A stretch of 64,000 nt of DNA from a candidate division NC10 bacterium CSP1-5 (GTDB lineage Bacteria > Methylomirabilota > Methylomirabilia > Methylomirabilales > CSP1-5), in the NCBI GenBank assembly GCA_001443495.1, contig LDXR01000004.1, forward strand, positions 62,001 to 126,000. The letters run 5' to 3'. This document shows, piece after piece, positions 42,218 to 44,868 of this stretch (the first letter of the stretch is position 1; each line of letters begins with the position of its first letter). The notes under the pieces are model-generated. The model made no database searches and was not told where the DNA came from. It was given only the letters and a program-made list of their open reading frames with translations. Position numbers and translations under genes: made by a program.

Positions 42218-43249
42218 ATGCTGACGATCGACGGATCCTACGGGGAAGGGGGAGGGCAGATCCTCCGAACTGCCCTGGCCCTGAGTGCCGTGCTGGACCG
42301 GCCGGTGCTGATCGAAAAGATCCGCGCTGGACGGAGGAACCCGGGACTTCAGGCCCAGCACCTGGCCGGCGTCAAGGCATTGGCCGAGATCACCAGGGCT
42401 GAGGTCGAGGGGGCCACCGTCGGGTCGACTTCGCTCCGGTTCGTTCCGGCCCGCATTGCTCACGGAGCCTATCGGTGGGATGTGGGTACCGCCGGCGCCA
42501 TCTCGCTCGTGCTGCAGGCGATCCTGGTCCCGCTCGCGTTCGCACCCGCTGCTTCGCATATTGCCATCACCGGCGGGACACACGTCCCGTGGAGCCCTCC
42601 ATTTCCTTACGTCGAACAGGTCCTCCTCCCCACGCTGCAAGGCATGGGCCTTCGGGTGTCGCTCAGACTCGGGCGGTGGGGGTTCTACCCGAAGGGGGGA
42701 GGGATGGTCGAGGGGACGATCGAGGCCTCGACGCTTCGGCCGGTGACTCTCACCCGTCGAGGATCGCTCACGGAAATTGTGGGCCTCTCGGCGGTGGCCG
42801 GGGTCCCGACAGACATTGCGGAGCGGCAGCGGCAGCGCGCCCTCGCGCGTCTCAGCTCACTCGGGGTCCCTTGTCGGATTGAAACCAGCGCGGTGCAGGC
42901 GTCAAGTCCGGGGACGGTCCTCTTTCTTTTGATCAGGTGTGAGGGGGGACGGGCCGGATTCAGCAGTCTGGGCGCAAGGGGAAAACCGGCGGAACGCGTG
43001 TCGGATGAGGCCTGCGATGAGGTTTTTGTGTATCTCGAGCAGGAGGGGGTCGCCGATCCTTACCTGGCCGATCAGCTCCTGCTGCCGATGGCCCTCGCCT
43101 CCGGCTCGTCCTCGATGACGACGACGCGAGTGACCGAACACCTGTTGACGAACCGGTGGGTGGTAGAGCAGTTTCTTCCGGGACGCGTGAGGGTCGAGGG
43201 AGGCGTGGGGCAGCCGGGTCGCGTAACGGTCGAGGGCGCCGGCCGATGA
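42218..43249 (+). CDS. rtcA: RNA 3'-terminal phosphate cyclase
   Basis: 343 residues. IDGSYGEGGGQILRTALALS, RRNPGLQAQHLAGVKAL, VGTAGAISLVLQ, GFYPKGGGMVEGTIE, and the catalytic-His region TEHLLTNRWVVEQFLPG are all diagnostic. RtcA converts RNA 3'-phosphates into 2',3'-cyclic phosphates with ATP. No rtcB is in the window. ATG 42218; the spacing to the upstream thioesterase gene (75 bp) permits cotranscription. Confidence 0.93.
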   Translation: MLTIDGSYGEGGGQILRTALALSAVLDRPVLIEKIRAGRRNPGLQAQHLAGVKALAEITRAEVEGATVGSTSLRFVPARIAHGAYRWDVGTAGAISLVLQAILVPLAFAPAASHIAITGGTHVPWSPPFPYVEQVLLPTLQGMGLRVSLRLGRWGFYPKGGGMVEGTIEASTLRPVTLTRRGSLTEIVGLSAVAGVPTDIAERQRQRALARLSSLGVPCRIETSAVQASSPGTVLFLLIRCEGGRAGFSSLGARGKPAERVSDEACDEVFVYLEQEGVADPYLADQLLLPMALASGSSSMTTTRVTEHLLTNRWVVEQFLPGRVRVEGGVGQPGRVTVEGAGR

Positions 43250-43392
43250 CGGCTCGACTGGGCTCGCCGAAGTCCGATGACAAAGGGATCGACGGAAAAT
43301 TCCGCAACTTGCTGGTTCTGGTGCAGCAGCGCCCTCGGACCCTGAACTGTGAACCGTTAACTGTGAACTCGCTGTGCGGGAGGAGGTAAAGG

Positions 43393-43722
43393 ATGGTGGA
43401 GCCCACAAGCATCAGTCCGGCCGACGTCCGGGCACGTCTGCAGTCCGGGAGAGGGACGATACTCGTCTGCGCCTACGAGGACGAGGCCAAGTTCACACGG
43501 GCCCGGCTCGAAGGGGCGATATCGCTCCAGTCGCTTCAATCGAGGCTTCCGTCTCTTCCGAAGGAAACAGAGATCGTCTTTTATTGAGGCTGACCTGAGG
43601 ACGCAAGCGCTGTCGGTCGGGCAGCCGAGTACAGGGAAAAGGGATACGCGAACGCCAAGGTCCTTGCTGGAGGGATTGCCGCCTGGAAGGCGGCAGGCTA
43701 TCCGGTCTACCGTGATGGCTAA
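43393..43722 (+). CDS. Rhodanese-like protein with two in-frame TGA codons (putative selenoprotein)
   Basis: 109 codons, read through TGA at 43585-43587 (codon 65) and 43591-43593 (codon 67). The N-terminal half (ISPADVRARLQSG, ILVCAYEDEAKF, LEGAISLQSLQSRLP, ETEIVFY) and the C-terminal half (PEDASAVGRAAEYREKGY, KVLAGGIAAWKAAGYPV) are continuous rhodanese homology. The joint reads IVFY-U-G-U-PEDAS, where single-domain rhodaneses have FYCxCPxxAS, so both Cys positions are TGA. ATG 43393 follows GGAGGTAA. The alternative is a pseudogene, but no frameshift is needed. Confidence 0.8.
43609..43625 (+). promoter_or_regulatory. Candidate bacterial SECIS element of the rhodanese gene
   Basis: GCUGUC pairs with GGCAGC (one U-G) around the loop GGUCG (43615-43619). 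The loop begins 22 nt after the second TGA and 28 nt after the first, so it can serve both. Confidence 0.6.
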
Positions 43723-43934
43723 GTCTTGCGCTGGGGTTCACACACGGACGCTGGCGAAGACACCGGTAAACGCCCTCCTGGTATAGCGAAAGCTTGACTG
43801 CTCGGCACTGCGCTTGCTACACCCGCCCCAGGTAGTTCACAGTTCATGGTTCGCGGTTCACAAACAGCCGCCAGTAAGGATGCAACGCTTCGAGCTCGAC
43901 CGTGATCCAGAGCGACCCATACCCCTCCCGCTTT

Positions 43935-44016
43935 CGACTGTGAACAGTGAACGGTGAACCGTGAACGCTACTGCCGGTTTTGACTTTCAATCTGTGAACG
44001 GTGAACCGTGAACGCT
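43935..44016. repeat. GTGAACGGTGAACC-type tandem repeat
   Basis: Two blocks of three or four GTGAAC/GTGAACC units (near 43939-43967 and 43993-44015). Related single runs occur at 43338-43372, 43830-43862 and 40550-40590. The gap 43723-44019 is filled by these and holds no gene. Confidence 0.75.
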
Positions 44017-44019
44017 CCT

Positions 44020-44868
44020 ATGACACGGGTGGGCATTTTCTATCATGAAAGCTTCAGCCGGCGGAGCTATCTGACCGTCGGCCGGCGATTGGCCGATTTC
44101 CCTGCCGCCCTCGACGAGCTCTTGCAGGACGAGCGGTTCCGCCTCTACCGATGCTCCGAGGCTGACGATCGGCTCATCCTCCAGGTCCATCGTCCCGCGC
44201 TCATTCCGGAGGTAGAGGCGGACCCGCTGTGAAGCACCGCCAGGGCCTCGGTCGGAGGCGTCGTAGCGGCGGCAGAAAAGATCTGCGTCGGCGAGTTGGA
44301 TCGGGCGTTTGCCTTTATCGGTGCGGGCGGGCACCACGCGGGGGTGGATTTCTTCGGCGGCTACTGCTGTTTCAACGACGTCGCCATCGCCATCGCCCAC
44401 CTCCGGAACACCTACGGCGTCCGCCGGTTCGCCATCCTCGACACCGATGCCCACCATGGCGATGGGACGCGGGACATTGTCCAGGAGGACCCCGATGTCC
44501 TCCACGTCTGCATCTGCGGCATGAACTATGTCTCTCCGGACGGGACCAAGGTCGATGTCCCCGCCCCCTGGGGAGGCCGTGACCCGGACGAGGCGTATCT
44601 GAAGACGGCGGAGTCTGCCTTTGCCTCGAGGGTCCGGGACTTTCGGCCGGATCTCACCGTCTGGTACTTCGGCTTTGACGGGCACCGGGGAGACTACGGA
44701 GATATGGGACTTTCCCTTCGCTGCTTTGTGGGACTCGCCGATTTCATGGTTGGAGCAGCCCGGGATGCCTCAAGCGGCAAGCTCCTCACGGTTTTGGGAG
44801 GAGGCTCCCGCACCGACCTCGCCACAATGATCATCCCCCAGGTCATCCACCGCCTCGGCGCGGAATAA
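44020..44868 (+). CDS. Class II histone deacetylase-like protein with in-frame TGA (putative selenoprotein)
   Basis: 282 residues read through TGA at 44230-44232 (codon 71). Part one (VGIFYHESFSRRSYLTVGRRLADFP...LILQVHRPALIPEVEADPL) and part two (STARASVGGVVAAAEK...FAFIGAGGHHAGVDFFGGYCCFNDVAIAIAHL, LDTDAHHGDGTRDI, VCICGMNYVSPDG, DGHRGDYGDMG) are one arginase/deacetylase fold with the zinc ligands and the GHHA catalytic pair present. The TGA sits between them in the same frame, probably at a conserved Cys. ATG 44020; GTG 44008 is possible. Confidence 0.78.
44245..44259 (+). promoter_or_regulatory. Candidate bacterial SECIS element of the deacetylase gene
   Basis: GCCUC/GAGGC stem closing the loop GGUCG (44250-44254), 17 nt after the TGA. 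The loop is identical to that of the rhodanese gene. Confidence 0.65.

Follow-up and report, generated by a model that had tools for sequence, protein, structure and literature searches.

The window analyzed here is a 64,000-nucleotide stretch of a contig of the candidate division NC10 bacterium CSP1-5. It contains a short rhodanese-domain gene with two in-frame TGA codons, followed on the same strand by a histone-deacetylase-superfamily gene with a single in-frame TGA. The features of the locus, in window coordinates, are as follows.

43378–43386, + strand: Shine-Dalgarno-like G/A-rich stretch GGGAGGAGG, 5' of the ATG at 43393, as read from the sequence
43393–43722, + strand: rhodanese-domain gene, predicted to encode a double selenoprotein of 109 aa with 2 Sec; stop TAA at 43720–43722
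43468–43470, + strand: codon of Cys26 in the LLVC[AG]Y signature, a third chalcogen residue, near-invariant in the family
43585–43587, + strand: TGA 1, predicted Sec65, at the classical rhodanese nucleophile position; Cys (TGC/TGT) in most orthologues
43591–43593, + strand: TGA 2, predicted Sec67; TGA in every orthologue found
43609–43625, + strand: putative bacterial SECIS (bSECIS) hairpin GCUGUC-GGUCG-GGCAGC for both UGAs, based on conservation, covariation and the published model
44020 (ATG)–44868, + strand: histone-deacetylase-superfamily gene, next after the rhodanese gene (Pfam E 3e-35)
44230–44232, + strand: the one in-frame TGA of the deacetylase homologue, conserved in two other species of the genus (L051 and L052)
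44245–44259, + strand: hairpin GCCUC-GGUCG-GAGGC of the deacetylase homologue; the loop starts 17 nt after the TGA

As a preliminary description of this DNA had stated, the two TGAs of the rhodanese gene share one frame, that of the ATG at 43393, which under the standard code would end after residue 64. When they are read through, the active-site stretch becomes EIVFY-U-G-U-PEDASA (the two U being residues 65 and 67), and the protein matches the Pfam Rhodanese family (PF00581) over residues 9–101 (E 5e-10; 40.1 bits against a gathering cut-off of 22.2), in agreement with the earlier claim that rhodanese homology runs on either side of the TGAs. An AF2 model built from 41 sequences has a rhodanese fold (mean pLDDT 86) in which residues 65–67 lie between the strand 60–64 and the helix 68–82. 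In the PDB it is matched best by rhodanese domains, with sulfurtransferases among the nearest solved folds. Aligned with solved rhodaneses such as BH2092, residue 65 falls on their YC position; we infer that it occupies the position of the classical nucleophile, the active-site Cys. Because standard gene calling would truncate such frames at residue 64, UxU genes have probably been overlooked or mis-annotated in public genomes. On either side of the rhodanese gene, the spacers also contain GTGAAC[C/G/A]-type heptamer repeats, which occur on both strands (43342–43368, 43835–43861, 43940–43966 and 43994–44013), with 7 matches of this type in the window against 0.02 expected by chance.

Orthologues were collected in several searches, in none of which a TGA was a selection criterion. 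Among 95 genomes of the phylum, the UxU form was found in three genomes of the same genus (L026, L027 and L028), and the CxU form in a fourth genome of that genus (L029) and in ten genomes from other families of the class. Named genomes were scanned with residues 65 and 67 hidden in the query alignment, which returned 41 loci in Methylomirabilota/NC10 and Rokubacteria, Acidobacteriota, Nitrospirota, deltaproteobacterial lineages, Candidatus Brocadia and Planctomycetota; the closest named matches were from Candidatus Methylomirabilota/NC10 bacteria. The phyla to which an acidobacterium, a nitrospirotan and a Desulfomonilaceae bacterium belong were searched at about 400 genomes each, with matches in 3, 12 and 25 genomes, respectively; no relatives were found on viral contigs. 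Altogether, 73 distinct orthologues bear the signature of the family (54 CxU, 19 UxU and no CxC); they come from Methylomirabilota (NC10), Acidobacteriota, Nitrospirota, Desulfobacterota and Planctomycetota. Two members from Nitrospirota have the UxU selenorhodanese fused to a YHS domain (L066:1945–2628 and L068:3520–4200) of the family NF041384, which is itself known from selenoproteins.

The codons used at the two sites are highly restricted. In the 72 orthologues compared codon by codon, residue 67 is always TGA, and residue 65 is TGC (37), TGT (16) or TGA (19); neither TGG, TAA nor TAG occurs there, and no Cys was seen at residue 67 within the family. The first in-frame TGA is aligned with a Cys in 54 of the 73 orthologues. 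The lack of TAA, TAG and TGG at residue 65 excludes random nonsense and indicates Sec at both sites, as had been proposed, and the combined pattern suggests that residue 67 is an obligate Sec and that residue 65 toggles between Cys and Sec. Two observations that would have spoken against this had been named in advance: homologues that end before the FY or carry other residues at the two sites, and TGAs that are assembly errors. The homologues instead run through, with Cys or Sec (TGY or TGA) at the first site and Sec at the second, and assembly error is excluded because both TGAs recur in independent genomes (L051–L053, L056, L059, L062, L065, L066, L068, L078 and others).

We favor a mechanism that uses both residues as a pair because the invariant Sec is residue 67, rather than the residue at the nucleophile position. 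Residue 67 would be situated at the N-terminus of the following helix and, with residue 65 as the nucleophile, could form a two-chalcogen redox center, in which the pair would exist as a selenenylsulfide in CxU members and as a diselenide in UxU members. The near-invariant Cys26 is perhaps a further partner of the pair. Whether the i, i+2 chalcogen pair has a redox role, acting on peroxide, disulfide or sulfane substrates, is a question on which the sequences leave us evenly divided. It is also conceivable, although we are inclined to doubt it, that the Sec residues serve to carry persulfide or perselenide, which would make the protein a sulfur or selenium transferase that could, for example, deliver Se to SelD. 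Rhodaneses are under discussion as selenium carriers, and the alignment of residue 65 with the nucleophile position and the sulfurtransferases among the nearest solved folds fit such a role. However, classical rhodanese loops are not known to have a second chalcogen at the place of residue 67, the fixed Sec is not at the nucleophile position, an indication that the pair is important, and no sel genes are linked to the gene in its neighborhood. Across 47 loci, the gene neighborhood contained no conserved functional cluster common to the family and none indicating a substrate. The larger neighbor clusters were mostly frames overlapping the rhodanese gene, or general dehydrogenases and ABC proteins, the exceptions being a local synteny group (L057, L063, L064 and L072) and neighbors kept within the genus of the window.

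If both UGAs encode Sec, as we propose, SelB and Sec-tRNA-Sec would decode the two codons after recruitment by the single hairpin downstream. This hairpin, which the preliminary description had placed at 43609–43625, is present as claimed (GCTGTC-GGTCG-GGCAGC in the DNA). Its loop starts 27 intervening nucleotides from the first UGA and 21 from the second, and both spacings fall within the distance of 16–37 nt given by the published bSECIS model (PMC13188914). With 6 bp, the loop GGUCG and −10.3 kcal/mol, it also has the other properties used to recognize a bSECIS (a loop of 3–9 nt with G in the first two loop positions, a stem of 4–16 bp and an MFE <= −7.5). A counterpart of 6 bp, usually with the loop GGUC, is found at the same offset in all family members, and the hairpin does not differ in kind between UxU and CxU members. 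In 46 aligned sequences, 96% of the cells are paired, against at most 54% when the hairpin is slid along the alignment, and there are 14 double-sided changes against 4.0 in shuffled data (none of 500 shuffles reached as many); RNAalifold returned exactly these six pairs. Among the fourfold-degenerate columns examined, third-base variation is lowest at codons 74 (H 0.18) and 75 (H 0.38), which extend into the closing pair and the loop. Next come codon 66 and the mutually pairing codons 73 and 77 (H 1.13–1.21), and the remaining columns lie at 1.45–2.0. The covariation and the suppressed synonymous variation together support the assignment as a SECIS.

The hairpin is also rare in its surroundings. 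When all 1767 TGA triplets on both strands of the window were scanned for a hairpin of at least 5 bp with a 5-nt GGTC-N loop 16–37 nt downstream, four qualified: the two of the rhodanese gene, an adjacent out-of-frame TGA that shares their hairpin, and the one in the next gene. The 64-kb window contains only two hairpins with a GGTC-N loop at a proper distance from a TGA. An Rfam scan of the region gave no match. A longer fold that would pair across the second UGA (43582–43642, −21.7 kcal/mol) was rejected, as it is not the consensus of the relatives. The E. coli fdhF element has the same loop GGUC, which there starts after 18 intervening nucleotides. Sec insertion in E. coli is sensitive to the distance between UGA and SECIS, which could make the UGA at 27 nt a poorer site for decoding than the one at 21 nt. 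Both spacings lie inside the published range, and one hairpin may decode both UGAs efficiently.

The host has the machinery that this requires. Its genome (2.77 Mb, 99.7% complete) encodes SelA (600 bits), SelB (379 bits), SelD (404 bits) and a tRNA-Sec (74 bits; called by ARAGORN as tRNA-SeC with the anticodon TCA), and SelD has an in-frame TGA of its own, in the context GAG-U-ACK. TGA is a normal stop in this organism too, since the RtcA gene just upstream of the rhodanese gene ends in TGA (43247–43249). Among the other genomes that bear the gene, SelA was undetected in G008, G011, G102 and G846 and found only as a fragment in G100, and tRNA-Sec was undetected at E 1e-8 in G100, G810 and G846; most of these are probably incomplete drafts, but in G846 both were undetected.

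The history of residue 65 was traced on a maximum-likelihood tree computed with residues 65 and 67 masked. The tree has poorly resolved deep branches, and a count of changes on it is blind to gain versus loss. There are 8 state changes within the family (9 with outgroups), of which well-supported branches force at least 5, against about 15.5 when the labels are shuffled, which indicates that the state is inherited and yet has been flipped repeatedly. One such switch separates L028 (UGU) and L029 (CGU), sister species in the genus of the window whose hairpins are identical, and the UxU group in the Acidobacteria is nested among the CxU relatives L060 and L081. On either side of the TGAs, dN/dS is below 1 in most pairs, and below 0.5 except for one saturated value and the upstream part of L028/L029, where very few changes (10 nonsynonymous, 2 synonymous) underlie the ratio. 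In UxU species, the part downstream of the TGAs is under purifying selection.

On these comparisons, it is very probable that Sec is inserted at both residues 65 and 67 under the direction of one SECIS. An improbable alternative is that UGA 67 alone encodes Sec, with UGA 65 mostly causing termination or being read by another tRNA, so that the UxU form would be a regulated or leaky variant of CxU. The invariance of residue 67, with its fixed spacing of 21 nt to the loop, would suit this explanation, as would the 6 nt by which residue 65 is farther from the hairpin. However, TGA is found at residue 65 in several separate lineages, and species of the same lineage have retained it, the restriction to TGC, TGT and TGA is that of a Cys/Sec exchange and not of random nonsense, the downstream part remains under purifying selection in UxU species, and neither spacing lies outside 16–37 nt. 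A pseudogene, a sequencing error or genome-wide reassignment of UGA could be suspected from two in-frame stops under the standard code, but is so improbable as to be negligible, being already refuted by the conservation of both sites in independent genomes from several phyla, by purifying selection, by the TGA stop of RtcA and by the dedicated Sec machinery.

The adjoining gene, too, is likely to encode a selenoprotein. The 211 codons behind the TGA of the deacetylase homologue are under strong purifying selection (dN/dS 0.08–0.13), and the sequence examined, which includes stretches covering much of the same-genus genome G010, yielded no orthologue lacking the TGA. By eye, the TGA aligns with an aromatic residue of some other HDACs, and Sec is likely, though less than certain, at this site. 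An exact-phrase literature search returned nothing on selenoprotein deacetylases, and we regard the homologue as a candidate for a new selenoprotein family beside the rhodanese.

Taken together, the locus may represent a distinct, apparently uncatalogued subfamily of selenorhodaneses, in which the catalytic Cys and Sec are repeatedly exchanged beside an obligate Sec, and in which a U-x-U diselenide would be produced through one SECIS from UGAs 6 nt apart, with a further, apparently undescribed selenoprotein gene of the HDAC superfamily adjoining it in this genus; for this reading as a whole, the case for and the case against seem to us about equally strong. The occurrence of Cys and Sec at the same position in sister species offers a natural test of what the second selenium contributes (diselenide versus selenenylsulfide), and the family allows one to ask how SelB copes with two UGAs that lie at different distances from a single SECIS.

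Two groups of paralogues share the motif position and the hairpin offset of the family, but lie outside its well-supported clade and lack the VC[AG]Y signature. In the first, a rhodanese domain with LYC-T-U-P and one Sec is part of a longer frame (~320–380 aa); the host genome encodes one such copy (L002, G000:C7:107308–107619), with a hairpin at the same offset as in the rhodanese of the window, and its relatives are L041–L044, L047, L048 and L050. The second, with FYUTUP, is another group of UxU double selenoproteins (L040, L045, L046 and L049, in the same-genus genomes G013, G012, G011 and G009, respectively); it was not found in the genome of the window at the threshold used. As this group lies outside the clade and is nonetheless UxU, rhodaneses have probably acquired the motif more than once.

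Among the 119 prokaryotic selenoprotein families in a 2026 inventory are a CxU rhodanese that has one Sec and TsoB, of the type UxxxxU (PMC13188914); the UxU motif is absent from the inventory, although our comparison covered open-access literature and the motif could be described elsewhere. Two Sec residues in one redox motif also occur in SelL, for which a diselenide has been reported (PMC2398784), and in the Prx-like 2 proteins of the GOS survey (PMC2397514), but these are not rhodaneses and their spacing is UxxU. TsoB (NF045694), a rhodanese/DsbD fusion, resembles the protein of the window in having a rhodanese-type domain and two Sec, but is a fusion of 572 positions with another Sec spacing, and the window protein scores 13.2 bits against its cut-off of 805. 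The closest catalogued selenoprotein family is NF041203 (rhodanese_LYCAU), listed as 'rhodanese-like form 3' with CxU and 1 Sec (PMC13188914, Table 1). It likewise has a single rhodanese domain with C-x-U, the Sec being two residues past the nucleophile position. The window protein (53.4 bits) and the four other members tested (50–65 bits) fall below its cut-off of 115 bits and, unlike NF041203, the family described here has the LLVC[AG]Y signature with the near-invariant Cys26 and a first position that switches to Sec.
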